32,115 bases of DNA, from NCBI RefSeq assembly GCF_012940005.1, contig NZ_SPMX01000076.1, forward strand, positions 1 to 32,115, given 5' to 3'. The position numbers were made by a program, and so were the translations under genes. Below, one piece after another: positions 19,019 to 31,737 of the stretch (positions are counted from its first letter, which is position 1; every line of letters begins with the position of its first letter). A model generated the notes under the pieces. That model did not search any database and was not told the origin of the DNA. It was given only the letters and a program-made list of their open reading frames with translations. The stretch comes from Candidatus Accumulibacter contiguus (lineage in GTDB: Bacteria > Pseudomonadota > Gammaproteobacteria > Burkholderiales > Rhodocyclaceae).

Positions 19019-19138
19019 ATGAACTTCAAGGTGATGCCTGAACTGGAGTGGGAATACGGCTACCCGCTGGCGTTGGCCATGATCGCTGGTGCCATGGGGT
19101 TTCTCTTCTTCCGCTTTAGGCGCCTGGGCTGGCTATGA
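19019..19138 (+). CDS. CorA-tail microprotein between kdpC and kdpD
   Basis: A 39-residue ORF reads MNFKVMPELEWEYGYPLALA, one hydrophobic helix, then FRFRRLGWL and a stop. This is the exact layout of the C-terminus of CorA-type magnesium channels: the MN of the GMN selectivity motif, MPEL, W..GYP, the second membrane helix and the basic RR.GWL tail. No other part of CorA is present upstream. Its stop overlaps the kdpD start as ATGA, so translation of kdpD is probably coupled to it. The ribosome-binding site is weak; a GTG at 19001 is an alternative start. It is either a relic of a corA gene fused into the operon or a functional small membrane peptide. Confidence 0.65.
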   Translation: MNFKVMPELEWEYGYPLALAMIAGAMGFLFFRFRRLGWL

Positions 19139-21840
19139 CTGAACGTCCCGACCCCGATCAACTCCTGGCACGCGTCCAGGAGGAAGAGGCTAAAGCCGCA
19201 CGCGGCAAACTGAAGATTTTCTTCGGCGCATCGGCCGGCGTTGGCAAGACCTACGCGATGCTCCTCGCCGCCCACCAGCAGAAAGAGCTGGGAACGGACG
19301 TGCTCATCGGCGTCGTCGAAACGCATGGCCGCAAGGAAACCGAGGCCTTGATCGCCGGTCTCGAACGGCTACCCCAGCTTGAAATTCCCTACCGCGGCAA
19401 GGTGCTCAGGGAGTTCGATCTTGACGGCGCACTCGCGCGCCGTCCAGCGCTGATCCTGATGGACGAACTGGCCCATGCCAACGTCGCCGGCTCGCGCCAT
19501 CCCAAACGCTGGCAGGACGTGCATGAACTGCTCGCTGCCGGCATCGACGTCTACAGCACGGTCAATGTGCAGCATCTGGAAACCCTCAATGATGTGGTCA
19601 GCGGCATCGCCGGCATTCGTGTCTGGGAAACCGTACCCGACCGTGTCTTCGACGACGCCGACGAAGTGGTGCTGGTCGACCTGCCGCCCGACGAATTGCT
19701 GCAGCGCTTGAAAGAGGGCAAGGTCTATCTGCCGCAGCAGGCGGAACGTGCGATCCGCAACTTCTTCCGCAAGGGCAACCTGATCGCCCTGCGCGAGCTG
19801 GCGCTGCGCCGCACGGCCGACCGCGTGGACGACGAGATGCTGGCCTACCGCCGCGAAACCTCGGTGAGCAAGGTATGGCAAACGCGCGACGCGCTGCTGG
19901 TGTGCATCGGACCGGGAAGGGGTGGCGAGCGCCTGGTGCGCACCGGTGCGCGCCTGGCCGGGCGGCTTGAAGCTCCATGGCATGCCATTCACGTCGACAC
20001 GCACACCGCGGGGCCGGAGCCGGAAGTGCAACGCCAGCGCATCGTCCGCGCGCTCGAACTGGCTGCTTCCCTCGGTGCCGAAACCGCGACACTTTCGGCC
20101 AACGAGGCGGTCGCCGCGATCGTCGACTATGCTCGCACTCAGAATCTGTCGCGGGTGCTGGTCGGGCGCGACCACTCGCGCCCCTGGCAACCCTGGTACC
20201 GTTCGATCGCCGACCGTATCGGCCACGCCGCGCCCGACCTCGACGTGGTTCAGGCGGCACGCAGCGAGGACAAGCGCGCCGCCGTGCCGGCGCCGACGGC
20301 TCCACCGACAGCTGGCGAGTGGCTGGCCTATCTCAAGGCAGCGGCGATCTGTGGCGCGCTAACGGCTCTGGCGGCGCCGCTGGCCGGCGCGATCGAACTC
20401 ACCAACATCGCCATGTTGTTCCTGCTCGCAGTATTCTTCGTGGCCATGCGTCTTGGCCGTGGCCCTGCGGTGGCCAGCTCCTTTCTGGCAGTTGCGGCCT
20501 TCGACTTCTTCTTCGTGCCACCGCGTTTTTCCTTCGCCGTCAGCGATGCACAATATCTGATGACCTTCGCCGTGATGCTCATTGTGGCCTTGATCACAGG
20601 CCAGCTCACCGCGCGTTACAAGCAGCACGCCGATGTGGCAACGCAGCGCGAGGCGCGCGCCCGCGGGCTTTACGAAATGGCACGTGATCTGTCGGCAGCC
20701 TTGCTGCCGATGCAGATCGCCGAGGCTTGCGATCGCTTTCTGGCGGTCGAATTCAATGCCCAGGCTGCGCTGCTCCTGACCGACGCCCAAGACCGCTTGC
20801 GAGCGGAAGTCGTCAATGCCAGACCGGGTACCGCCGATACGCTGATCGTCGACGAGGGCGTCGCCCGCTGGGCCTTCGATCACGGCGAAGCGGCAGGACT
20901 GTCTACCGACACCCTGCCGGGCAGCCCGCTGCTCTATTTGCCGCTCAAGGCGCCGATGCGCACGCGTGGCGTTCTCGCCATCGCGCCGCGCGACCCGCTA
21001 CGCGTCCAGGGTCCGGAGACGCGCCGCCAGCTCGAGACCTTTGCCAGTCTGGTGGCGATCGCCGTCGAGCGCATGCACTATGTCGAGGTGGCGCAGGCGA
21101 CGCTGCTGCAGATGGAATCCGAGAGCCTTCGCAACTCGCTTCTGGCCGCCATCTCGCACGATCTGCGAACACCGCTGAGCGTACTCGTCGGCCTGGCTGA
21201 ATCGCTCAGGCTGACGCAGCCGAGCGACGCTCAGGCTTTGATCGTCGAAACCCTCAAGGAGGAAGCGCTACGCATGAGCACCAAGGTCAACAAGTTGCTC
21301 GTTATGGCTCGTCTGCAGGCCGGCAGGGTTCAGCTCAACCGCCAGTGGCAGCCGCTCGAGGAAGTGGTCGGCAGCGCGCTCAAGGCCATGGAAATGTCGC
21401 TGACTGCACATTCGGTTCGTACGGCGCTACCCGATGAGCTGCCACTGATCGAGATTGATGCGGTACTGATTGAGCGGGTGCTCTGCAATCTTCTCGAAAA
21501 TGCCGTCAAGTACACACCGGCCGGCACCGTAATCAGCATCGGTGCCATGCTGCGCGAGTACGAGATCGAAGTCTGGGTCGACGACTGCGGTCCGGGTTTG
21601 CCGAAAGGACGCGAAGAGAGTATTTTCCAGAAGTTTGAACGCGGTGCGCGGGAAAGCACGACGCCGGGGGTAGGGCTGGGTCTGGCCATCTGCCGCGCCA
21701 TCGTCGAAGCGCACGGAGGCAGGATTCATGCCGAGAACCGCGCCAATGGCGGGGCACGTTTCCTCTTTTCTCTGCCTCGCGGTGTACCGCCGACGGTCTG
21801 CGAAGATGACTTGCTGGCGGCAGAGGACATCACTCCATGA
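19135..21840 (+). CDS. kdpD: Potassium/turgor sensor histidine kinase KdpD
   Basis: KdpD is the inner-membrane sensor kinase that phosphorylates KdpE under potassium limitation. The 901-residue protein begins with the KdpD domain carrying Walker A GASAGVGKTYAML (about residues 31-43). A universal-stress-type domain follows (about 250-370), then four close membrane helices (about 400-500), a GAF-like region, and the kinase core. The phospho-acceptor is H675 in ISHDLRTPLSVL; the ATP lid has NLLENAVKYTP, DDCGPGLP and GVGLGLAICRAIVEAHGG. Length matches E. coli KdpD (894). It overlaps the upstream CorA-tail ORF and downstream kdpE, each by ATGA. Confidence 0.97.
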   Translation: MTERPDPDQLLARVQEEEAKAARGKLKIFFGASAGVGKTYAMLLAAHQQKELGTDVLIGVVETHGRKETEALIAGLERLPQLEIPYRGKVLREFDLDGALARRPALILMDELAHANVAGSRHPKRWQDVHELLAAGIDVYSTVNVQHLETLNDVVSGIAGIRVWETVPDRVFDDADEVVLVDLPPDELLQRLKEGKVYLPQQAERAIRNFFRKGNLIALRELALRRTADRVDDEMLAYRRETSVSKVWQTRDALLVCIGPGRGGERLVRTGARLAGRLEAPWHAIHVDTHTAGPEPEVQRQRIVRALELAASLGAETATLSANEAVAAIVDYARTQNLSRVLVGRDHSRPWQPWYRSIADRIGHAAPDLDVVQAARSEDKRAAVPAPTAPPTAGEWLAYLKAAAICGALTALAAPLAGAIELTNIAMLFLLAVFFVAMRLGRGPAVASSFLAVAAFDFFFVPPRFSFAVSDAQYLMTFAVMLIVALITGQLTARYKQHADVATQREARARGLYEMARDLSAALLPMQIAEACDRFLAVEFNAQAALLLTDAQDRLRAEVVNARPGTADTLIVDEGVARWAFDHGEAAGLSTDTLPGSPLLYLPLKAPMRTRGVLAIAPRDPLRVQGPETRRQLETFASLVAIAVERMHYVEVAQATLLQMESESLRNSLLAAISHDLRTPLSVLVGLAESLRLTQPSDAQALIVETLKEEALRMSTKVNKLLVMARLQAGRVQLNRQWQPLEEVVGSALKAMEMSLTAHSVRTALPDELPLIEIDAVLIERVLCNLLENAVKYTPAGTVISIGAMLREYEIEVWVDDCGPGLPKGREESIFQKFERGARESTTPGVGLGLAICRAIVEAHGGRIHAENRANGGARFLFSLPRGVPPTVCEDDLLAAEDITP

Positions 21841-22544
21841 ACAACCCGATCGCCGGCATTGTCGTCGTCGAGGATGAAGCCAATATCCGCCGTTTCATCA
21901 AACTTGCGCTCGAAAGCGAAGGCTATCAGGTCTTCGAAGCCGACAGTGTGCAGCGTGCCCTGATCGAGACCGGCACCCGCCGCCCCGACTTGGTAGTGCT
22001 CGACCTCGGTCTTCCTGACGGTAACGGGATCGATTTCATTCACGAACTGAGAAGCTGGTCGGAGATGCCGGTGATCGTGCTTTCGGCGCGCAACGCCGAG
22101 ACCGACAAGGTCGCTGCACTCGATGCCGGTGCCGATGACTACCTGACCAAGCCCTTCGGCACCGCCGAGTTGCTCGCCAGGGTACGTGCGCAATTGCGCC
22201 GTCGCAGCCGTGATGATCGCGGTGTGGCCATCATTGAATTCGGTGCGATGCGTGTCGACCTGACGCGGCGAAGCGTCGAACGCAACGGCACCGTGATTCA
22301 CCTGACGCCGATCGAATACCGATTGCTCTGCTATCTGATCGCTAACCCCGACTGCGTGCTGACGCATCGGCAATTGCTGAAAAACGTCTGGGGTCCGGCG
22401 CATGTCGAAGACAGCCACTACGTGCGCGTTTATATGGGCTATCTGCGCAAGAAGATCGAAGACAATCCGTCGCGACCGCAGCACATTCTGACCGAAGCGG
22501 GTGTGGGCTACCGTTTTGTCGGTTCGCGAGCGGGCGATCAGTGA
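21837..22544 (+). CDS. kdpE: Response regulator KdpE
   Basis: KdpE is the OmpR/PhoB-type regulator that activates kdpFABC. The 235-residue protein has a receiver domain with the acidic pair in VVEDEAN, the phospho-acceptor D56 in VLDLGLPDG and the lysine in YLTKPFG. The C-terminal winged helix has LTPIEYRLLCYLIANPD, recognition segment HVEDSHYVRVYMGYLRKKIE and ending EAGVGYRFV. It is the last gene of the operon; a 14-bp-arm inverted repeat begins 43 bases after the stop. Confidence 0.97.
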   Translation: MNNPIAGIVVVEDEANIRRFIKLALESEGYQVFEADSVQRALIETGTRRPDLVVLDLGLPDGNGIDFIHELRSWSEMPVIVLSARNAETDKVAALDAGADDYLTKPFGTAELLARVRAQLRRRSRDDRGVAIIEFGAMRVDLTRRSVERNGTVIHLTPIEYRLLCYLIANPDCVLTHRQLLKNVWGPAHVEDSHYVRVYMGYLRKKIEDNPSRPQHILTEAGVGYRFVGSRAGDQ

Positions 22545-22586: not shown

Positions 22587-22775
22587 ACGGTCATGACTTT
22601 GCAAGACACCCCCGATGATGAAAGTCATGACCGTTTCCCCTCTCCCCCAACCCCTCCCACGGCCCGCGCTGCATCGCGGGCCGGCTGCGGCGGCGCGGAG
22701 CAGTGCTCCGCGAAACCCCGCCTTCGCCCCCGCGAGGGGGGAGGGGAGATTCGAGAGTCGCTCGCGACTTCCATA
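22587..22775. repeat. Intergenic repeat, long copy (before pncB)
   Basis: The copy has ordered blocks. A perfect inverted repeat ACGGTCATGACTTT (22587-22600) and AAAGTCATGACCGT (22621-22634) comes first, then a pyrimidine block (TTTCCCCTCTCCCCC). Next is an extra segment with two hairpins (GGCCCGCG/CGCGGGCC at 22661-22682; CGCGGAGCA/TGCTCCGCG at 22694-22712), then CCCCGCGAGGGGGGAGGGGA, and finally the AGTCGC/GCGACT hairpin. The same blocks, without the extra segment, recur at 28947-29066. The leading hairpin could also serve as the kdp operon end signal, although no T-run follows. Confidence 0.8.
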
Positions 22776-22909: not shown

Positions 22910-22960
22910 AAAAAAATTTTGTGTCTGTTAGTTGCAAAATGCAACAAAGTGGTCTACAGT
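22910..22960 (+). promoter_or_regulatory. pncB promoter with overlapping palindromic operator candidate
   Basis: TTGCAA (22932-22937) and TACAGT (22955-22960) are 17 bases apart. An A7T4 tract at 22910-22920 just upstream looks like an UP element. A perfect palindrome GTTGCA-AAA-TGCAAC (22931-22945) covers the -35, where a bound repressor would block RNA polymerase. I cannot assign it to a known NAD regulator from sequence alone. Transcription would start near 22967. Confidence 0.5.
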
Positions 22961-23007
22961 GTGTTCATGCGCCGGCTGGTCGGCGTTGCCGAAGAAGGAG
23001 AGTGAGT

Positions 23008-24228
23008 ATGACCTGGCAGAAGATTCATCCCCCCGTCGTTCGCAGCCTGCTGGAAAACGACCTGTACAAGTTCACGATGTGGCAGGCGCTGCTGCATAGC
23101 CACCCGGGAGCGCAGGCCGAATACGCCTTCTTCTGCCGGAACCGGCCCGTCTATCCGCTGGCAGAGCTTAAGGCCGACGTCGATGCCGAACTCGACCAGT
23201 TGTGCACCCTGACCTTCGGCGACGATGAACTCGCGTATCTGCGCAGCCTGCGCTTCATCAAGAGCGACTTCGTCGACTTCCTCTCGGTGTTTCGCTTCCA
23301 GCGCCGCTTCATCAGCACGCGCGCCGACGGCGAGCATCTGCGGGTCGTCGCCAGCGGCCCCCTGGTGCATGTCATGGCCTTCGAGATTTTTGTGCTCTAC
23401 ATCGTCAATGAGCTCTATTTCCGCCGGCTGTCGACCGAGGCTTCGATCCTTGCCGTGGCGCGCGAACGACTGCAGGCGAAGGTCGAATTCCTCAAGTCGG
23501 AGCGCCCGGCGCTGCTGTCGGCGAACGAGCCTTTCATCTTCTTCGACTTCGGCCTGCGCCGGCGCTATTCCGCTGCCTGGCACGAGGAAGTCGTGCGCAC
23601 GCTGGCCAGAGAGGTGCCGGAGCATTTCCGCGGCACGTCCAACGTCTACTTTGCGAAGAAGCTGGGGCTGACGCCGATCGGCACGATGGCGCACGAGTAC
23701 CTGCAGGCTTACCAGGCGTTCGGCTTCCGCCTGCGCGATTTTCAGAAAGCGGCACTCGAGGCCTGGGTGCAGGAGTACCGCGGCGATCTCGGCATCGCGC
23801 TGACCGACGTGGTCGGCATGGATGCCTTTCTCGCCGATTTCGACCTGTACTTTGCCAAGCTGTTCGACGGCCTGCGCCACGATTCGGGCGATCCCGTCGA
23901 ATGGGCGGAGAAGGCGCTGCGCCACTATGCGCAACTGCACATCGACCCGATGAGCAAGCGCCTGGTCTTCTCCGACGGCCTCAACCTGCCGCGCGCGGTC
24001 GATCTGTACCGGCGTTTGCGCGGACGTGTGCAGACCTCCTACGGCATCGGTACCGACCTTTCGAACGATACGCCGCACCAGGCGCTGAATGTGGTCATGA
24101 AAATCATGGCGTGCAACGGGCAGCCGGTCGCCAAGCTCTCCGATTCTGCGGGCAAGACGTTGTGCGAGGACCGCACCTTCCTTGCCTACCTGCGCCAGGT
24201 CTTCAATCATCCGCTGGAAACGCCATGA
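23008..24228 (+). CDS. pncB: Nicotinate phosphoribosyltransferase
   Basis: PncB converts nicotinate and PRPP, with ATP hydrolysis, to nicotinate mononucleotide, the first step of the Preiss-Handler NAD salvage route in the cytoplasm. The 406-residue protein begins [20 protein letters not shown], as in the family. It has the phosphorylated histidine H229 in [14 protein letters not shown], the substrate motifs [17 protein letters not shown] and [10 protein letters not shown], and ends with LSDSAGKT. E. coli PncB has 400 residues. The ATG at 23008 follows AAGGAG; the frame is open further upstream but the family begins here. The stop overlaps nadE as ATGA. Confidence 0.96.
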
Positions 24229-25931
24229 GCCACTTTCGCATCACCCTCGCGCAGTTGAATCCGACGATCGGCGACATCGACGGCAACATCGGCCTGATGT
24301 GTCGAGCAGCCGCTCAGGCGCATGCCGAGCAGGCGCAGATGGTGGTTTTCCCCGAACTGTCGCTGACCGCTTACTCGCCCGGTGACCTGCTCGATGAACC
24401 CGAATTCATCGAGCGCGCGGCGGCGGGCCTGAACACGCTGCTTGCAGCCAGCCATGCGACACCGGGCCTGTATTGGGTGGTCGGCGCGCCGACGCGGCGC
24501 AGCGGCCCCGGCAAGCCGCTCGAAAACAGTCTGCTCGTGATTTGTGATGGCGCCGTCGTTGTCCGCTACGCGAAGCAGTTGCTGCCGACCTACAACATCT
24601 TTGACGAGCGCCGCCATTTCGAGCCGGGGCCGGATGTCGCCCGGATCCTGCGCGTTGGCGGCACGCAGGTCGGCTTCCTGATCTGTGAAGACGGCTGGAA
24701 TGACGCCGGCAGCGACTATGCGGTCAACCCGTTTAGCCGCCTCGCCGATGCCCGTCCCGATCTGCTGGTGACGATCAACGCCAGTCCGTCGAACATCGGC
24801 AAGCGCGAACAGCGCCATCGTCTCTTTGCGGCGGCCAGCCAGCGCCACCAGATCCCGCTGGTCTATGTGAACCAGATCGGCGGGCACGACCAACTGGTCT
24901 TCGACGGCGCCTCGTTCGCAGTTTCTCCAACGGCTGGTGTGGTTTTCGAGGCGCCGCGCTTTGCCGAAGCGGTGAGCACGCTGCTGTGGGACGGCACGCT
25001 TTTTCTGTCGGCTACCGGGGAAGCGCTGCCGCCGATCGTCGCCGGTGGTTTGCCGGTGATGGAGTTCTACCGCCGGCAGATCGTTCTCGGCTTGCGCGAC
25101 TACGCTCGCCGCTGCGGCTTCAGCCGCGCGGTCGTCGGTTCCTCGGGCGGGATCGACAGCGCGCTGACGCTGGCGCTCGCGGTCGAGGCACTCGGCGCGG
25201 ACCATGTCGTCGCCATCACCATGCCCTCGTCTTTCTCGACGCCAGGCAGCGTCTGCGACTCCGAAGTGCTCTGCCGCAGGCTCGGAATCCGCCTGATCGA
25301 GCATCCGATCCGCGACCTCGTCAGCCAGTTCGCAGCGGATTTTGCCTCAGCCTGCAACGGCCCCTTGCGCGGCCTGGCGCTCGAGAATCTGCAGGCGCGG
25401 GTGCGCGGCACCATCCTGATGGAGTATTCCAACAGTTATGGCCACCTGCTGCTCACCACCGGCAACAAGAGTGAAATCTCGGTCGGCTATTGCACGCTGT
25501 ACGGCGACACCAACGGCGGTCTGGGTTTGATCGGCGACCTCTACAAGACCGAAGTCTTTGCCTTGAGCCGGCACCTCAACGAATGCGCCGGTGGCGAAGT
25601 GATCCCGCAGGCGATCCTCGACAAGGAGCCTTCGGCCGAACTCGCGCCCGGTCAGCGGGACACCGACAGCCTGCCGCCGTATCCGCTCCTGGATACGATC
25701 CTCAAGGTGCTGATCGAGGGTGAGCGCCTCGGTGCCGGCGAGCGCGCGGAAGTCGAGTCCGCCTATGCGCAACTGCTGGCCGACGCCGAGGGCAGGGCGC
25801 TGCTGACGAGAATTCGGCGCATGATCGCGCGCAACGAATACAAGCGACGCCAGGCCCCGCCGATTCTGCGCCTGCGCGGGCGCGCTTTCGGCAGCGGCCG
25901 GCAGATGCCGATTGCCGCTTGCTATGACTGA
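24225..25931 (+). CDS. nadE: Glutamine-dependent NAD+ synthetase
   Basis: NadE makes NAD from nicotinate adenine dinucleotide, ATP and glutamine-derived ammonia. The 568-residue protein joins two domains. The N-terminal nitrilase-type glutaminase has its Glu in [15 protein letters not shown] (E44), Lys in [10 protein letters not shown] and nucleophilic Cys in LICEDGWND. The C-terminal synthetase has the P-loop [16 protein letters not shown], the NAD-site region [19 protein letters not shown] and [12 protein letters not shown], and ends GRQMPIA. It starts at 24225, overlapping pncB as ATGA, and is followed after 15 bases by the NadM-Nudix gene. It differs from the short ammonia-only NadE of E. 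coli. Confidence 0.95.
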
Positions 25932-25946
25932 ACAGGAGCCCATTAA

Positions 25947-26972
25947 ATGACCCCCGACCGATTCGACATCGCCGTACTGATTGGCCGTTTCCAGCCCTTC
26001 CACAATGCGCATGCGGCCTTGCTCGCCAGAACACTGCAAAGCGCCGGGCAGGTGATCGTCCTGCTCGGGTCGGCGCACGCCGCGCGCAATGCGAAGAACC
26101 CGTTTACCTGGGAGGAGCGCGCCGCCATGATCGGCAGCACGCTCGACGACGCGACGCGCGAGCGTGTCCGTTTTCTGCCGATTCGCGACTACTACGACGA
26201 TCGGCGCTGGAGCGAGGCGGTCGTCGCCGCGGTGCAGGAGCACAGTGCGCCGGGCGCGCGGATTGCCCTCGTCGGCTACCTCAAGGATGCCTCCAGCCAA
26301 TACCTGCAACGTTTTCCGCGCTGGCAGTTCGTCGCCGCGCCGCAATTTGACGAGATCGATGCGACCAGCATCCGCCAGATCTACTTCGAGAGCGAAGACT
26401 GGCCGGCGACGCAGGCACTGCTCGGCGGGCTGCTACCGGCGACGATCGTTCATTATCTGAAGGGCTGGACCCGTCTGCCGCATTACCGCCAACTGCGCGG
26501 TGAGCATCTGGCCCTCGAGGAGAACCGGCGGATCTGGGGAAACGGTCCTTTCGTGACCGTGGACGCGGTCGTCATCGCGTCCGCGCACGTCCTCCTCATC
26601 GAACGTGGGCATCCGCCGGGAAAGGGCTTGTGGGCGGTACCGGGCGGTTTCCTCGAGGCGCGTGAGCGCGTCCTGCAGGGCGCGATTCGCGAGTTGCGCG
26701 AAGAAACCGGCCTCGGCCTGCTCGATTCCACCCTTGAAGTGGCCCTGCAAAGCGTCGCCGTTTTCGATCATCCCGACCGCAGTCTGCGCGGGCGAACGAT
26801 CACGCATGCGCACTGCTTCGATCTCGGCGACTGCCGCTTGCCCGATGTCTGCGGCGCCGACGATGCGGCGCAAGCCAGGTGGACTCCGATTGCAGAACTC
26901 CAGGCCATGGAAAGTCGCTTTTTTGAAGATCACTTCAACCTGCTCGACCACTTCCTGTCCCTGCATCCCTGA
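25947..26972 (+). CDS. nadM: Bifunctional nicotinamide-nucleotide adenylyltransferase / Nudix hydrolase (NadM-Nudix)
   Basis: The 341-residue cytoplasmic protein fuses two activities. Residues 1-185 form an adenylyltransferase of the NadM type: VLIGRFQPFHNAHAAL with the ATP-binding HxGH-like histidines, then FTWEERAAMI and ATSIRQIYF. Residues about 200-340 form a Nudix domain with a full box, G-x5-E-x7-RELREETGL, which in the Synechocystis and Francisella homologues hydrolyses ADP-ribose. Between PncB and NadE the adenylyltransferase would supply the missing NaMN-to-NaAD step, provided it accepts NaMN. The Nudix domain would recycle ADP-ribose. An AGGAG site precedes the ATG; the next gene starts 10 bases after its stop. 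Confidence 0.93.
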   Translation: MTPDRFDIAVLIGRFQPFHNAHAALLARTLQSAGQVIVLLGSAHAARNAKNPFTWEERAAMIGSTLDDATRERVRFLPIRDYYDDRRWSEAVVAAVQEHSAPGARIALVGYLKDASSQYLQRFPRWQFVAAPQFDEIDATSIRQIYFESEDWPATQALLGGLLPATIVHYLKGWTRLPHYRQLRGEHLALEENRRIWGNGPFVTVDAVVIASAHVLLIERGHPPGKGLWAVPGGFLEARERVLQGAIRELREETGLGLLDSTLEVALQSVAVFDHPDRSLRGRTITHAHCFDLGDCRLPDVCGADDAAQARWTPIAELQAMESRFFEDHFNLLDHFLSLHP

Positions 26973-26982
26973 GCCTGGCGCG

Positions 26983-27960
26983 ATGTCATTCACCGCACTC
27001 ACCTGTCCGCAATGCGGCGCGGCGCTGCCCAGGCAGGCGAGCTGGCGCATGGTGATCTGTCCCTATTGCAGCGCGACGGTCACCCGCAACAAGTCGCTGG
27101 TGCAGGCGGCGCCCTTGCGCGAAGCGGCGGCGCGAGTTCGTGCGCAGGCCCTGGCCGGCTACCCATCGACCTTGCCGGTGCTGCGCTGGCAGGGGCAACG
27201 CTACCAACTGCTCAAGCGGGTGGGCATCGGCGAACACGCCGAAGTCCATCTCGCCGAACGCATGGGTCTCTTTCCGGAACGGGTGATCGTCAAACTGGCG
27301 CACGCCGGTACGAAACCCGGCGTGCTTGCAGCCGAGGCCGAGATCCTGCGCGCCCTGCAGGCGAGTACGCTGGCAGAGGCGGCGTACCTCTCGCAAAGGG
27401 TTCCGCAAGCGATTGCCAGCGGTGTCGGCGAAACGGCCGGCGGGAACGAGCGGGAAGGGCTGCTGCTTCGCCATCCTTCCGGATACTGGGGCAGTCTGGC
27501 GCAGGCCCTGCGTTACGCAGCAACCGGAATCGATCCGCGGCACGCTGTCTGGATCTGGAGGCGAGTCCTCGAAGTGCTGGCATTTGCGCACGACAGCGGC
27601 TGGACGCACGGCGACCTGCGACCCGAGCACTGGCTCGTACACCCGCGCGATCACGGCGTGCTCCTCGTCGGCTGGTCGCACGCCATGCCTGGCGCGGATG
27701 GCGCAGCGATCGCCCGCGATCTGCGGCAATCGGCGTGGACCCTGCGTGCGCTCTTGTGCGGAGGCGACGCGCTGCCCACCTGCGGGCGCAGTACGCCTTC
27801 TCCCCTGGTGGCTTTGCTGCAACGCAGCAGCGAAGACGCCGCCTGGTGTGCCGAGGTCGGCGCGCGTGGGCTCGACCAGGCGCTGGTCGCGGCCGCTCGC
27901 GCCGCCTTCGGGCCACCGAAATTCATCCCTTTCAACCCCACTTCGGCGACTTGCCGCTAG
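26983..27960 (+). CDS. Zinc-ribbon kinase-like protein, probable pseudokinase
   Basis: The 325-residue protein starts with a treble-clef-like zinc ribbon (C8, C11, C26, C29; CPQCG and CPYCS). A protein-kinase-like domain follows: glycine-rich loop VGIGEHAEVHL, Lys in VIVKLA, helix-C Glu in AAEAEILRAL, catalytic loop HGDLRPEHWLV. The Asp of the catalytic loop is kept, but the canonical Asn is His and the metal-binding DFG is replaced by VGWS, so phosphotransfer is doubtful. About 90 residues follow with no identified domain. There is no membrane segment or signal, so it should be cytoplasmic. It sits within the NAD cluster; the next gene's ribosome-binding site overlaps its stop (TAGGAG). Similar zinc-ribbon kinases beside VWA proteins are known in TerY-P-type gene sets, a resemblance I infer. 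Confidence 0.75.
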   Translation: MSFTALTCPQCGAALPRQASWRMVICPYCSATVTRNKSLVQAAPLREAAARVRAQALAGYPSTLPVLRWQGQRYQLLKRVGIGEHAEVHLAERMGLFPERVIVKLAHAGTKPGVLAAEAEILRALQASTLAEAAYLSQRVPQAIASGVGETAGGNEREGLLLRHPSGYWGSLAQALRYAATGIDPRHAVWIWRRVLEVLAFAHDSGWTHGDLRPEHWLVHPRDHGVLLVGWSHAMPGADGAAIARDLRQSAWTLRALLCGGDALPTCGRSTPSPLVALLQRSSEDAAWCAEVGARGLDQALVAAARAAFGPPKFIPFNPTSATCR

Positions 27961-27969
27961 GAGAAAATC

Positions 27970-28947
27970 ATGGGCTACGGTAGTTATTCACACAGCGCGC
28001 ATGCGGCGCTGACCACGGATCGGGCGGCGCTGTCACGCGCCGAAGTCTTCAAACAACGGGGCTGTCACGCCTTGATGGACCCCAGGGGCCTGACGGTTCG
28101 CGAAGCGCGCGACAGCGCCGAACATCCGAACTCGCTCGGCATCGTCTTTGCGCTCGATGTCACCGGCTCGATGGGAAATATTCCCGAATTCCTCGCGCGC
28201 CACGATCTGCCGACTTTCATGAAGTTGCTGACCGATTGCCGGGTTCCCGACCCGCAGGTGATGTTCATGGCGATTGGCGATGCCACCTCGGATGGCGCGC
28301 CGCTGCAGGTCGGGCAGTTCGAAACCACTGCGGAACTGATCGACCAGTGGCTCACCTGGAGTTACCTCGAAGGAGGAGGCGGTGGCTCGAATAGCGAGAG
28401 TTACGAGCTGGCTTTCTACGTACTCGCGCAACACACCGACCTCGACTGCTGGGTGAAGCGCAGGAAGCGTGGCTATCTGTTCATGACCGGCGATGAGCAC
28501 CCCTATCCGGCCGTTTCTCGTCATCAGATCGAAGCCCTGATCGGCGAGAGGCTCGACGAAGACATCGCGCTCGAGGAGGTCGTCGCCGCTGCCGCCGAAA
28601 CCTGGCATCTCTTCTTCCTGATTCCGGATCGGCAACGCCGTCAAGGCTGTGAAGCACGCTGGCGCGAGGTGCTCGGCGATCAGGTGATCTGCATGGAATC
28701 TCATGTGGATACCTGCGCGATCGCGGCAGCGATTGTCGGTCTGACCGAGGGCGCCCTCAGCGGCGTCGACGCGGTCGCCGATGTCCTGCACGCCAACGGC
28801 ACCCCGCGTGATCGCATTGCCGCCACCGTCCGTGCGCTGCAGCCTTATGCTGATCTGCTCGACCCGGACGCGCCAAAGCGTATACACACGCATCCGGCTT
28901 CGACCGCGATCGGCAAACCCGACTGGTGGAAGCGCCTGTTTTCCTGA
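27970..28947 (+). CDS. von Willebrand factor A-like domain protein of unknown function
   Basis: The 325-residue soluble protein has no signal peptide. After an N-terminal segment (MGYGSYSHSAHAALTTDRAA), a VWA-type metal-binding motif appears as FALDVTGSMG (D-x-T-x-S, the first MIDAS element), followed by a variant of the next motif (GDATSDGAPLQ), a Gly-rich loop (LEGGGGGSNSESYELAF) and FMTGDEHPYP, which can provide the last MIDAS acid. VWA folds usually mediate metal-dependent protein binding. I recall this subfamily as a conserved but uncharacterised bacterial protein. It follows the zinc-ribbon kinase-like gene with an overlapping SD, so both are probably made together. The stop codon lies within the first bases of an intergenic repeat. 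Confidence 0.78.
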   Translation: MGYGSYSHSAHAALTTDRAALSRAEVFKQRGCHALMDPRGLTVREARDSAEHPNSLGIVFALDVTGSMGNIPEFLARHDLPTFMKLLTDCRVPDPQVMFMAIGDATSDGAPLQVGQFETTAELIDQWLTWSYLEGGGGGSNSESYELAFYVLAQHTDLDCWVKRRKRGYLFMTGDEHPYPAVSRHQIEALIGERLDEDIALEEVVAAAAETWHLFFLIPDRQRRQGCEARWREVLGDQVICMESHVDTCAIAAAIVGLTEGALSGVDAVADVLHANGTPRDRIAATVRALQPYADLLDPDAPKRIHTHPASTAIGKPDWWKRLFS

Positions 28948-29066
28948 CGGTCATGGCGGTTGCAGGTATCCCCGATCATGACAGTCATGACCGTTTCCCT
29001 CTCCCCCCGACCCCTCCCCCGCGAGGGGGGAGGGGAGATTCGTGAGTCGCTGATGCGACTTTCACA
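28947..29066. repeat. Intergenic repeat, shorter copy (after the VWA gene)
   Basis: Left arm ACGGTCATG (28947-28955) and right arm CATGACCGT (28986-28994) form the leading hairpin, weaker than in the copy at 22587 because the left arm diverges after nine bases. The pyrimidine block, CCCCGCGAGGGGGGAGGGGA and the AGTCGC-TGAT-GCGACT hairpin (29045-29060) follow, as in the longer copy but without its extra two-hairpin segment. Its right end merges into the leader of the PurA-like gene; the left arm starts within the VWA stop codon. Confidence 0.8.
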
Positions 29067-29088
29067 CTAAGGGGGAGGGCCTGTGCGC

Positions 29089-30465
29089 ATGCCCCGCCTG
29101 GTCTCCCTGCTCGGTCTGGGTTTCGGCGATTGTGGCAAGGGCGTGTTTACCGACGCCCTCTGCCGGCGCTGGCAGGTACACACGGTCGTCCGTTTCAACG
29201 GCGGCGCGCAGGCCGGACACAACGTCGTCCTGCCCGACGGCCGGCAGCATACCTTCTCGCAATTCGCTGCCGGGACGCTGGTGCCGGGAGTGGCGACCGT
29301 TCTCGCCTATCCGGTGGTCGTCCATCCCGGCGCGCTTCTGGTCGAGCATTCCCGGCTGCAGTCGATGGGCGTCGATGATGGCCTGGCGCGCCTGTTCATC
29401 GATCGGCGCTGTCGGGTCAATACGCCGTTTCATCAGGCCGCCGGTCGTCTGCGCGAGCTGGCGCGTGGCGCCGCGGCACATGGAAGCTGCGGGGTCGGGG
29501 TCGGCGAAACCGTACACCATGCGCTCGCTCACCCCGAGCACACGCTGCATTACGGCGACCTGGCGCGACCCGCGCTGGCGATGCAGAAACTGCAGGCCAT
29601 TCGCCGCGATCTCCTGCCCGTGTTCGCCGCCCTGGGCAAGGCTGTCGCAAATGCTGCAGCAATCGCGGCCGAGCATCGTTTGCTCGCCGACGCGCAGCTT
29701 GCCGAAGCCTGGCTGGAAAACATCCAGAACCTGTTGCGGTACGTTCCCCCATCGTCAGCAGAAAGAATCGCCGCGCGCCTGACGCGCCCCGGGACGGTCT
29801 TGTTCGAGGGGGCACAGGGCGTTCTCCTCGATGAATGGCGGGGATTCCATCCGCACACCACCTGGAGCAGCATCCACCCGCGCGCCGTCGAAGCGGTAGC
29901 GGCAGACTACGGCTGCCCTGCCCGGGTCGAGCACCTCGGGGTCCTGCGCGCCTATCTCACGCGGCACGGAGCGGGTCCCTTCCCGACGGCCGACGCCGGA
30001 CTGGACGTTCTCCCGGAGCCGCATAACAGCGACCAGGGCTGGCAGGGCCGCTTCCGGCGTGGCCACCCGGACGGTGTGCTCCTGCGCTACGCACTGGCGG
30101 CCACCGGGCGTCTCGACGGCCTGCTGGTCAGTCACCTCGATGCCTTCGGGCATGTTCCCGGGCTGCGCTGGTGCGAGGCCTACGAGACGACCGTGCCCGG
30201 AGAAGAGTGCCAGGCTGCCGGCTGGCTGGCGCCGTCCGGGCGCGTGACGAGCCTGCCGTGCAGCGCCAGAGAAGACCTGGCACACCAGGCAGCGCTGACG
30301 GACCTGCTCTTCCGGGTACGTCCGGTCTATCAGGCGCGCACGCTGACTGCAGCGGCGTCGCTGCTCGAGCGGCTGGAGCAGGCCGCTGCCTGCCCGATCT
30401 GGTTTGCCTCCTGCGGGCCGAGCCACGAGGCTGTCCAGCTTCGTTCGCAACCGAGATGGAGGTGA
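29089..30465 (+). CDS. Divergent adenylosuccinate synthetase paralogue (PurA-like)
   Basis: This 458-residue protein has the full PurA fold by motif order: GFGDCGKGVF (PurA: GDEGKGK), NGGAQAGHNVV with the catalytic-type His, FEGAQGVLLD, AYLTRHGAGPFPT, an Arg loop GRFRRGHPDGV, LDAFG in the guanine region, and a final WFASCGPS. PurA normally condenses IMP and aspartate using GTP. Differences sit in functional loops: GDEGKGK to GDCGKGV, the IMP loop (GTT.RGIGP) to GSCGVGVGE, TKLD to SHLD. Substrate specificity is therefore probably altered; this is not the housekeeping purA, as neither its neighbours nor its loops fit. The ATG at 29089 is chosen over a GTG at 29083 because GGAGG lies about ten bases before it, though the GTG is possible. 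Confidence 0.8.
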   Translation: MPRLVSLLGLGFGDCGKGVFTDALCRRWQVHTVVRFNGGAQAGHNVVLPDGRQHTFSQFAAGTLVPGVATVLAYPVVVHPGALLVEHSRLQSMGVDDGLARLFIDRRCRVNTPFHQAAGRLRELARGAAAHGSCGVGVGETVHHALAHPEHTLHYGDLARPALAMQKLQAIRRDLLPVFAALGKAVANAAAIAAEHRLLADAQLAEAWLENIQNLLRYVPPSSAERIAARLTRPGTVLFEGAQGVLLDEWRGFHPHTTWSSIHPRAVEAVAADYGCPARVEHLGVLRAYLTRHGAGPFPTADAGLDVLPEPHNSDQGWQGRFRRGHPDGVLLRYALAATGRLDGLLVSHLDAFGHVPGLRWCEAYETTVPGEECQAAGWLAPSGRVTSLPCSAREDLAHQAALTDLLFRVRPVYQARTLTAAASLLERLEQAAACPIWFASCGPSHEAVQLRSQPRWR

Positions 30466-30574: not shown

Positions 30575-31027
30575 TTACTCGCTTTTCAGTCCGACAGTCG
30601 CGGGCGGCACATCGCCGACGGTGATTTCCAGCGAGTTGCCTCGCAGGACCACGCTGTCGATCATTGCACGAACCTCCAGCTTACCTGCGGCAGGTACCGG
30701 GAAACCGGCAAATCCGACGACGAACTGCATGGCGTAGCCGTCGTCCAGTCCTACACGGGGTTGCTTGATAACCGATTGTAAAAACTCAGGCGGCGGCTCG
30801 ATCGCTTGCAAGACCTCGCCATCACGATGCACCTCAAGTTTTACAGAGGAAGGTGCCTTTTCAGATGGCATGCGCAAGTTGGCAATGATCGCCAATTTAG
30901 GGAGATGGGTTGGCACCGAGGGAACCCGCAACCCACCTTGAAAAGCTCCAATGATCGACATCTGCCCGGTAATTTCCTGGCGGACATCCTCGGCATAGAG
31001 GCAAAAGAGGTACGGGGAGTTAGACAC
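30575..31027 (-). CDS. DUF6941-like small protein
   Basis: The 150-residue product begins NSPYLFCLYAEDVRQEITGQ and continues MSIIGAFQGGLRVP, the pattern of the DUF6941 family as I remember it (an A/AEDIRQE segment and G.YQGG). The rest looks like a beta-rich soluble domain (KLEVHRDGEVL, KLEVRAMID, LEITVGDVP). No function is known to me. The GTG start at 31027 overlaps the regulator's stop codon (GTGTCTAA), indicating coupled translation. The frame is open further upstream, but that stretch is the antisense of the regulator gene. Confidence 0.65.
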   Translation of the reverse strand: MSNSPYLFCLYAEDVRQEITGQMSIIGAFQGGLRVPSVPTHLPKLAIIANLRMPSEKAPSSVKLEVHRDGEVLQAIEPPPEFLQSVIKQPRVGLDDGYAMQFVVGFAGFPVPAAGKLEVRAMIDSVVLRGNSLEITVGDVPPATVGLKSE

Positions 31028-31394
31028 GGTCAGCCTCCGCTTTATTAGTCGCCTCAACCGCAGCGATGACCTCTCTGATATCAACCCCGAGCACGGCGGC
31101 AAGTTTCTGGAGGGTAGACAGACTCGGGTCCCCTGGTTTTTTCTCGAGGCGCGCAATGTTGGGCTGCTTCATGTCCATCTTCCCAGCCAGCTCAGACTGC
31201 GACAGGCCGGCCGCCAGGCGCAAGGCGGAAAGTGGCCGGAATCCCGGATTAAGGTGGTCAGCAACTTTGGCAAGACGCTGTCGCCCTTTCACGATCGCCA
31301 CAGCACGCAGGGGGTTGTTCCTGATGCGCGCAATGCGCTCGGTTGCAGAAACGCCTCTCTTCGGCGAGCTATCGCCGGCCACATGCCGATTCAT
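31020..31394 (-). CDS. XRE-family helix-turn-helix regulator
   Basis: The 124-residue protein has a C-terminal XRE/Cro DNA-binding domain (SALRLAAGLSQSELAGKM, then KQPNIARLEK, then LSTLQKLAAVLGVDIREVI), the usual five-helix layout. The first ~60 residues form a basic N-terminal extension (ERIARIRNNPLRAVAIVKGR) that might contact a partner. This arrangement (small gene, then an HTH gene) is like HigBA-type toxin-antitoxin pairs, but the upstream protein is not a recognisable HigB. The ATG at 31394 is preferred; the frame remains open to 31517, where it would overlap the upstream gene. It probably autoregulates the three-gene unit. Confidence 0.78.
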   Translation of the reverse strand: MNRHVAGDSSPKRGVSATERIARIRNNPLRAVAIVKGRQRLAKVADHLNPGFRPLSALRLAAGLSQSELAGKMDMKQPNIARLEKKPGDPSLSTLQKLAAVLGVDIREVIAAVEATNKAEADRV

Positions 31395-31434
31395 CGCGAT
31401 GAATACCGGCGTGATCTGCAATCCGAAGAGGCCG

Positions 31435-31737
31435 CTATGGGACCCGCCTAATGGCAGGAATGTTGAGCCTGTCGTACCGATCACAGAGACTTCGGTGTTC
31501 ATCAGTTGTGGTGTCATAGCAAGTCGCCCTGGGTTGAACGGTCAAAACAAAATATTCGTCGGTATGCGCGTCATGCCCGATGAAAACACGGTAATCAATC
31601 AGATGTCCGTCTTCGTCATAAGGTTTCAGCGTGTAAATTCTTCGGCACGCTTGCCAACACTCTGCGAAGCACTTGATCTCGAAGGAGGGACTGAACATGT
31701 AGTGCCACTTGGGAACCTCGTCGCTGAGTGTGTCCAA
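31435..31737 (-). CDS. Unknown 100-residue protein upstream of the XRE regulator
   Basis: I do not recognise this protein. It is soluble, aromatic- and Asp/His-rich (RRIYTLKPYDEDGHLIDYRV, GHDAHTDEYFVL), with several Cys residues (CFAECWQACRR). The frame starts at a TTG (31737); an internal ATG (MFSPSF, 31698) is an alternative, and neither has a strong ribosome-binding site. It is followed after 40 bases by the XRE regulator gene, so it is a candidate partner or toxin. Base composition is visibly lower in GC than in the kdp and NAD regions. Confidence 0.5.
   Translation of the reverse strand: MDTLSDEVPKWHYMFSPSFEIKCFAECWQACRRIYTLKPYDEDGHLIDYRVFIGHDAHTDEYFVLTVQPRATCYDTTTDEHRSLCDRYDRLNIPAIRRVP

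Follow-up and report, generated by a model that had tools for sequence, protein, structure and literature searches.

A kinase-like, VWA and PurA-like gene trio follows an NAD-salvage operon with a putative NrtR operator in Candidatus Accumulibacter contiguus and recurs in bacteria and phages

Why does an operon for the salvage of nicotinamide adenine dinucleotide (NAD) continue into three genes that do not belong to a standard NAD pathway? The question is raised by a 32,115-nucleotide stretch of Candidatus Accumulibacter contiguus (contig NZ_SPMX01000076.1; hereafter the window), which is contig C114 of a 5.02-Mb genome. A run of genes on a single strand of the window comprises pncB, nadE, nadM-Nudix and genes for a zinc-ribbon kinase-like protein (kin), a von Willebrand factor A-like protein (VWA) and a divergent paralogue of the adenylosuccinate synthetase PurA (PurAL). 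This layout, first read from the sequence by a model without database searches (the first-pass annotation), is confirmed by gene calls and Pfam (Table 1). The distances between successive genes from pncB to PurAL are -4, 15, 10, 9 and 135 bases, and co-transcription of all six genes appears likely from this spacing and from the conservation of the genes. We consider it about as probable as not (roughly 0.5) that positions 22928-30465 represent one NrtR-controlled operon plus an accessory module, kin-VWA-PurAL, which acts on a purine-bearing metabolite during NAD breakdown.

Table 1. Features of the NAD-salvage and kin-VWA-PurAL region of the window (MIDAS, metal-ion-dependent adhesion site)
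Feature	Position	Strand	Evidence
NrtR-type operator palindrome (putative), 5' of pncB	22928..22948	+	genome-wide motif match
pncB, nicotinate phosphoribosyltransferase	23008..24228	+	PF04095 5.9e-78; TIGR01514 479.6 bits
nadE, NAD synthetase with N-terminal carbon-nitrogen hydrolase (glutamine-using type)	24225..25931	+	PF02540 3.3e-62; PF00795 4.4e-21; NF010588 568.9 bits
nadM-Nudix bifunctional enzyme	25947..26972	+	NUDIX 4.3e-17; CTP_transf_like 1.4e-10; NF003791 1.2e-94, below its cut-off
kin, N-terminal zinc ribbon and protein-kinase-fold domain, predicted pseudokinase	26983..27960	+	APH 6.8e-5 (at cut-off); CxxC...CxxC
VWA protein	27970..28947	+	phrog_2971 4.5e-49; MIDAS-like DVTGS...TGD
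Dispersed repeat, VWA-PurAL gap	28947..29051	+	repeat search of genome G000
PurAL, divergent adenylosuccinate-synthetase paralogue	29083..30465	+	PF00709 3.6e-57

The three extra genes travel together. A search of 84,980 species genomes with an alignment of VWA proteins gave 79 distinct loci; kin, whole or cut, is present in all 79 and PurAL in 77, both exceptions ending at a contig edge. The kin-VWA-PurAL trio is a unit that recurs more than expected by chance, and the earlier view that the three genes form a set is borne out. The same annotation had asked whether the genes occur alone elsewhere. VWA is almost always accompanied by PurAL, with an exception in Rhodovulum; every genome search was seeded on VWA, so that kin or PurAL without VWA was not sought. 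Six sequences of a single genus supplied the search patterns, so that the 79-locus set is biased towards close relatives. Record titles nevertheless place the trio in Betaproteobacteria, Verrucomicrobia, Myxococcota, Chloroflexi and Planctomycetota, with single metagenome-assembled genomes labelled Acidobacteria, Deltaproteobacteria and others; among named relatives, Candidatus Accumulibacter vicinus is the closest by VWA (97%). A VWA search of 35 genomes of another class returned no match, an answer that is uninformative by the search method itself.

Spacing within the trio varies among loci. VWA and PurAL are separated by about 12 bases in G026 and about 290 in G010, and in L080 they lie about 2 kb apart with one gene in between. 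A second VWA copy is found in L081, L082 and L084, where kin and PurAL accompany the first copy. A gene of about 420-500 codons (cluster 13) adjoins VWA in L080 and L081. Open reading frames (ORFs) around the 79 loci were picked by codon usage, and among their clusters, only part of which are annotated, no constant fourth gene stands beside the bacterial trio. Alignments including the window hold 75 kin, 80 VWA and 77 PurAL rows, with kin rows shorter than 260 residues (5 of 79) and one 214-residue PurAL row (of 77) left out. Some contigs carry two labels (L016 = G026, L018 = G008, L019 = G013, L020 = G018, L091 = G007).

NrtR, an ADP-ribose-responsive repressor, connects this module with NAD. 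When the 18-mer of the operator palindrome was searched through the whole genome with up to 3 mismatches, two sites were found, one upstream of pncB in the window (0 mismatches) and the other on contig C44, where it lies between nrtR and pncA (3 mismatches); the backwards control of the 18-mer gave 0 sites in the whole genome. The window operator is assigned to NrtR through this association with nrtR and is putative. The nrtR product of the genome (G000:C44) shares 59% identity with the L018 protein, which matches NrtR_WHD at 8.3e-21. The same motif is located 5' of pncA, pncB or nrtR in related loci. Among 19 operator-like matches with a score of at least 13 in the 79 loci, 17 are upstream of one of these genes and two weak ones are placed elsewhere (L024 +3704, L042 +10332). 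Most of the 17 sites built the matrix; five are independent of it (one each in L036, L039 and L040, two in L048), all of them upstream of nrtR. The operator, and NrtR beside pncA, pncB, nadE and nadM, are shared with the NrtR regulon of NAD salvage. The predicted NrtR regulation of the window locus is well supported, and the NAD link proposed by the first-pass annotation is strengthened by the palindrome and by NrtR beside the trio in several lineages. The palindrome also bears on the pncB gene, which was correctly recognized but given a start at 22921. That start is doubted because the palindrome lies inside this reading and an ATG with an upstream GGAG is present at 23008, which is probably the true start.

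It could be argued that the trio consists of unrelated passenger genes, read through from the promoter of a housekeeping NAD operon. The pair pncB and nadE adjoins the trio in only 6 of the 79 loci (four Accumulibacter-like, two other Burkholderiales), and the trio is rare in the order (4/399 genomes, the window's own counted) and patchy in the genus (7/28), all of which would suit passengers; among other relatives it is found in 0/33. Against this, the trio is conserved as a unit, and NrtR stands beside it in Massilia, Duganella and alphaproteobacterial loci without a nearby pncB or nadE match. NrtR adjoins the trio in 11 of the 79 loci, namely three Accumulibacter-like, two Burkholderiales, five Massilia and one Duganella. 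The two Burkholderiales loci carry a divergent pncA-pncB-nadE-nadM operon, whereas no pncB or nadE match was found near the trio in the Massilia and Duganella loci; the Massilia order is nrtR, SPFH-type gene, kin, VWA, PurAL. Of seven alphaproteobacterial plasmid loci outside the 79, five were examined (Allorhizobium, Agrobacterium vitis, Acetobacter, Rhodovulum and Rhizobium; those of Allorhizobium and Agrobacterium vitis are nearly identical), and in each of the five kin is preceded by a divergent nrtR match. Between nrtR and kin, Allorhizobium and Agrobacterium vitis have a TTAG...CTAA palindrome, which was also recognized by eye in Acetobacter. In the Burkholderiales genome G092, nrtR is divergent from VWA-PurAL, and the NrtR winged helix was identified by Pfam in L018, L024, L035, L063, L099, L217 and L219. 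Within the genus, NrtR is present in 5 of 7 trio genomes and in 3 of 21 genomes without the trio (P = 0.0095, Fisher's exact test, uncorrected for kinship). We regard the passenger explanation as unlikely. The first-pass annotation proposed a neighborhood test for an NAD association beyond one lineage, and its outcome is divided: pncB and nadE adjoin the trio only in the six loci given above, but the regulator NrtR adjoins it in more lineages.

In six Massilia and Janthinobacterium loci (L035, L036, L039, L040, L048 and L054), a SPFH/Band_7 protein with a SHOCT end is encoded between nrtR and kin, as assigned from a Pfam run on L035 alone. It is a possible fourth member of the module in these loci.

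We then consider what PurAL might do. A canonical PurA is encoded on another contig of the genome (E = 2.9e-172, compared with 6.6e-57 for the window copy), which agrees with the earlier assignment of the window gene as a paralogue; 108 of 393 aligned residues are identical between the two. PurA aligns over the full length of PurAL, and PurAL keeps Asp13 and His41 as PurA does (E. coli PurA numbering unless marked as window). PurAL differs from PurA in its tree group, its changed residues and its linkage to VWA. In a tree of 82 rows, a branch with support 100/99 sets off the 60 PurAL rows, bacterial and phage, and another with support 99/97 the 21 PurA rows; the phage paralogue PurZ is represented by a single very long row whose placement is unsure. 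The tree took 82 of 130 rows, leaving out about half of the rows from the IMG/VR collection of viral contigs and the PurA rows L206 and above.

Residue changes were counted in 97 PurAL rows, 77 viral and 20 bacterial or plasmid; of the 20, four are plasmid rows and 16 were picked from the 77-row PurAL alignment. Asp13, Lys16 and His41 are kept in 97/97 and Gln224 in 96/97. Together with window residues Arg294, His295 and Gln321, these four form a signature that is complete in 96 of 97 PurAL rows and in none of 31 PurA rows. Other positions have changed: Asn38 to Gln in 96 rows, Thr129 to Cys in 73, Val273 to His in 97 and Thr301 to Gln in 97. Asn38, Thr129, Arg143, Thr301 and Arg303 are each kept in 31/31 PurA rows, whereas the PurA residue is left in PurAL at Asn38 in 1/97, at Thr129 in 3/97 as listed and at Thr301 in 0/97. 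Arg143 is found in 1/20 and Arg303 in 6/20 bacterial rows, and neither is among the five commonest letters at its position in the 77 phage rows. Window R325 is kept in 92/97 rows and may equal Arg305, where two aligners place the gap differently. On our reading of PurA structures, the residues that PurAL keeps serve catalysis and the handling of the 6-oxo group, and those that it has changed hold the 5'-phosphate, ribose and aspartate. Because the residues holding the 5'-phosphate and aspartate have changed, PurAL, as far as can be predicted from sequence, probably does not use free inosine monophosphate (IMP) with aspartate; a different purine-bearing molecule or a different amine is more likely.

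PurZ, the 2-aminoadenylosuccinate synthetase of Z-genome phages, is likewise a phage-borne PurA paralogue, which raises the possibility that the product of PurAL is a modified deoxynucleotide destined for DNA. The annotation given to phage copies is "2-aminooxy adenylosuccinate synthetase", a name also borne by phrog_1211, which the window protein matches. The residues point the other way. In phage PurZ, Ser replaces Asp13 (PMC12884076); the one PurZ sequence that was compared, from phiVC8, has Ser13 and keeps Asn38, Thr129 and Arg143, whereas PurAL has Asp13 in 97/97 rows and has mostly lost the other three. PurAL was accordingly rejected as a PurZ, a role in making modified deoxynucleotides is very unlikely, and the phage proteins of the PurAL group that carry this label are probably misnamed. 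PMC12884076 gives 481 phage PurA homologues and a tree of 767 sequences, of which 251 belong to the PurA group and 151 to the PurZ group; our subtraction leaves 365 in neither group, and PurAL may be among them.

VWA has no match in Pfam or NCBIfam, and a sequence search of PDB gave nothing better than 0.37. Foldseek searches with its predicted structure recover VWA/integrin-type domains from 5.4e-7, with integrin I domains and von Willebrand A3 among them. Of the MIDAS-like residues, D63, S67, T173, G174 and D175 are found in 80/80 rows and T65 in 79. As modelled, the protein has both the VWA fold and the MIDAS pattern DxT/SxS ... T ... D.

The kin protein is predicted to be a pseudokinase. 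Its predicted structure, with a predicted local distance difference test (pLDDT) score of 90.5, matches PDB kinases from 2.5e-11 in Foldseek, and its profile matches PDB kinases at 1.5e-12. Among 75 rows, the VAIK-type Lys is conserved in 74 and the helix-C Glu in 75; the HRD Asp is present in 38, the DFG Asp is replaced by Gly in 74 and the catalytic-loop Asn by His in 75. The HRD and DFG Asp occur together in 1/75 bacterial-type rows and 0/24 phage rows, so that the usual catalytic pair appears to be missing, in keeping with the pseudokinase-like character first proposed for it. Since pseudokinases can have other activities, as titles in the reference list of PMC13174449 indicate, kin may, by analogy, also be an enzyme of another kind. 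Four zinc-ribbon cysteines lie at residues 8-29, at the N-terminus, in 75/75 rows. In a mixed set of 46 kin starts, the ribbon pattern is seen in 17, an HPD-like motif in 23 from phages and plasmids, and neither in 6, and a J-domain is clear in one phage kin (L133, Pfam 2.1e-25). A swap between zinc ribbon and J-domain on one kinase fold would fit an adaptor role.

The module is also widespread in viruses. VWA relatives were found in 206 phage-collection records (189 Mycobacterium/Mycolicibacterium, 10 Rhizobium, 6 Vibrio, 1 other) and PurA-like matches in 223, which may include other PurA homologues. At least 450 viral-contig candidates were confirmed in IMG/VR. The viral set analyzed consists of 83 loci, 80 of these candidates plus three named ones; two of its members, L105 and L106, resemble a Variovorax chromosome. 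VWA and PurAL are present together in 81 of the 83, the contig ending in the other two, and are mostly adjacent, lying 1.5-3 kb apart in a few loci. Sebata has the order kinase, VWA, small gene, PurA-like. Upstream of viral VWA, 31 loci have a member of the kinase cluster, 35 a 122-residue protein and 17 neither; the two never occur together. These counts suggest that VWA-PurAL is the constant core and that kin is exchangeable. The 122-residue protein is charged and is encoded about 370 bases before VWA (e.g., L161 7547-7915).

After the length cut, the viral rows comprised 29 of 34 kin matches, 82/83 VWA and 77/81 PurAL. For Vibrio phage L100 and Rhizobium phage L101, the genes 5' of VWA were considered as kin and rejected, being unlike kinases; L148, matched through these, was dropped too, and with two Variovorax-like contigs also left out the 29 kin rows became 24. 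In Rhizobium phage RHph_TM61 (L101 3942-6269), HAD-like, PRTase_3 (PF15610 9.4e-46) and Nudix genes lie upstream of VWA-PurAL. PRTase_3 is known from the nucleoside-like metabolite operons of Ter systems.

The trio in Bixzunavirus mycobacteriophages, in Vibrio and Rhizobium phages and in the IMG/VR candidates, with NAD-linked control in bacteria, is what one would see if the trio belonged to phage-host conflict, protecting or restoring a nucleotide pool attacked by an NAD-depleting or nucleotide-altering defence. There is a precedent, as phages reconstitute NAD against defence through NARP1, with Adps and Namat (PMC12774641); the trio would work in a similar way through other chemistry. NARP1 resembles the trio in being phage-borne and working near ADP-ribose and NAD; the folds of the trio differ from those named for Adps and Namat in that source, no search being aimed at these two proteins. 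Points on the other side are the absence of a constant fourth gene among the partly annotated clusters beside the bacterial trio, the scarcity of NAD-type matches near viral copies (4 nadM-like and 1 Nudix in 83 loci) and the lack of any PADLOC match for VWA or PurAL at E 0.1. PADLOC gives kin weak kinase-fold matches only (best PD-T4-6, 1.4e-7), and the trio was rejected as a known defence system. A conflict module is possible, though we lean against it. The first-pass annotation suggested a nucleotide-linked stress, repair or phage-response system; a phage response is conjectural, and phages themselves carry the module.

That annotation had also likened the genes to a TerY-P triad, in which a VWA protein is combined with a PP2C-like phosphatase and a kinase with a C-terminal zinc ribbon (PMC11090510). 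The likeness lies in a VWA protein beside a zinc-ribbon kinase-like protein. Pfam finds no PP2C among the six proteins of the operon, neighbors at other loci being only partly annotated; moreover, the ribbon is N-terminal, kinase residues are lost and a PurA-like gene is present. The trio was rejected as a TerY-P triad on these grounds.

We propose the following scheme for an NrtR-controlled operon with an accessory module. Breakdown of NAD would raise ADP-ribose, and NrtR would then release the operator; pncB, nadE and nadM would resynthesize NAD while the trio is made simultaneously. The trio would be a self-standing module placed on the NAD operon, found elsewhere without NAD genes and sometimes beside its own nrtR. 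PurAL would be the enzyme, a PurA-fold ligase in which a nucleoside triphosphate activates a 6-oxopurine-like group through Asp13, His41, Lys16 and Gln224. Its substrate would not be a plain 5'-monophosphate, and it would make or repair a purine-bearing metabolite; deaminated NAD or ADP-ribose is the boldest candidate, and a different amine donor comes next. VWA would be the fixed partner of PurAL, and kin would serve as an exchangeable adaptor for the recruitment of a target or Hsp70. Of this scheme, the gene set and its conservation, the tree group, the residue changes, the operator and the adjacency of NrtR are observed, and we infer the substrate, the partner roles, the enzyme activity, de-repression by ADP-ribose and co-transcription.

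In its boldest form, PurAL would repair the adenine end of damaged NAD or ADP-ribose by activating the 6-oxo group of the deaminated (hypoxanthine) form and joining an amino acid to it, an initial step in restoring adenine that host PurB would complete. Delivery or gating of PurAL would fall to VWA and to the pseudokinase with its J-domain or zinc ribbon. Such repair, if true, would account for the retention of 6-oxopurine chemistry, the changes at the 5'-phosphate residues, the NrtR control, the placement behind NAD salvage genes and the uptake by large phages; we hold it to be quite improbable.

Several observations weigh against the operon-and-module reading. No member of the NrtR cluster was found within about 8 kb in 68 of the 79 loci, some on short contigs, or beside any of the 83 viral loci, and NAD control is thus not universal. 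Two of the seven trio genomes of the genus are without NrtR. The Acetobacter nrtR match spans two frames and may be broken. In the actinobacterial plasmid loci, three of twelve examined, a Nudix gene follows PurAL, and it scores poorly as NrtR (0.0018 in L097, 0.0037 in L220, none in L096). The trio is not always whole, as G092 has VWA-PurAL and no kin match, and the Rhodovulum plasmid stretch has kin and VWA and no PurAL match. Lys331 of the PurA guanosine triphosphate site is His or Cys in 95/97 PurAL rows, which bears on the nucleotide used. Confidence in the VWA model is modest (pLDDT 72.3). Among 13 non-ribbon kin proteins tested against the Pfam J-domain, one passes the cut-off, five are weak (L182 4.3e-5, L098 1.7e-4, L166 7.3e-4, L109 0.009, L173 0.016) and seven have no match; the J-domain label thus rests mostly on the HPD-like motif. 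Finally, seeding was on VWA alone, with first patterns tuned to close relatives, and lone kin or PurAL genes were not looked for.

Other features of the window surround the operon. Upstream of the NAD genes lie kdpD and kdpE (19135-22544, named by eye from translations), followed by an intergenic stretch. The gap between VWA and PurAL is occupied by the dispersed repeat of about 105 bases, for which at least 44 matched stretches are listed genome-wide, itself included, with 40 of 196 candidates scored; a related copy lies upstream of pncB at 22587-22762. It is possibly a small mobile repeat. A consensus scan for promoters and terminators says little, since it found no promoters (1.2 expected) and eight terminator-like sites (6.6 expected). 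Past the end of the operon, on the minus strand (30575-31737), are a DUF6941 gene, a helix-turn-helix gene and an unannotated 100-residue ORF, a possible small regulatory set.

Within the open-licence literature, searched by titles and abstract starts, we found no paper on this module and none linking NrtR to adenylosuccinate; the module, as distinct from its folds, is apparently undescribed there. It occurs in several bacterial phyla and on hundreds of viral contigs, and in several lineages it is tied to an NAD sensor. Next to PurA and PurZ, PurAL is a further group of the PurA fold, and its defined residue signature makes its reaction directly testable. The recurrence of the module and its wiring to an NAD sensor point to unfamiliar nucleotide chemistry. 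These results suggest that NAD breakdown triggers more than NAD resynthesis in the bacteria that carry the module, and that phages carry the same tool.

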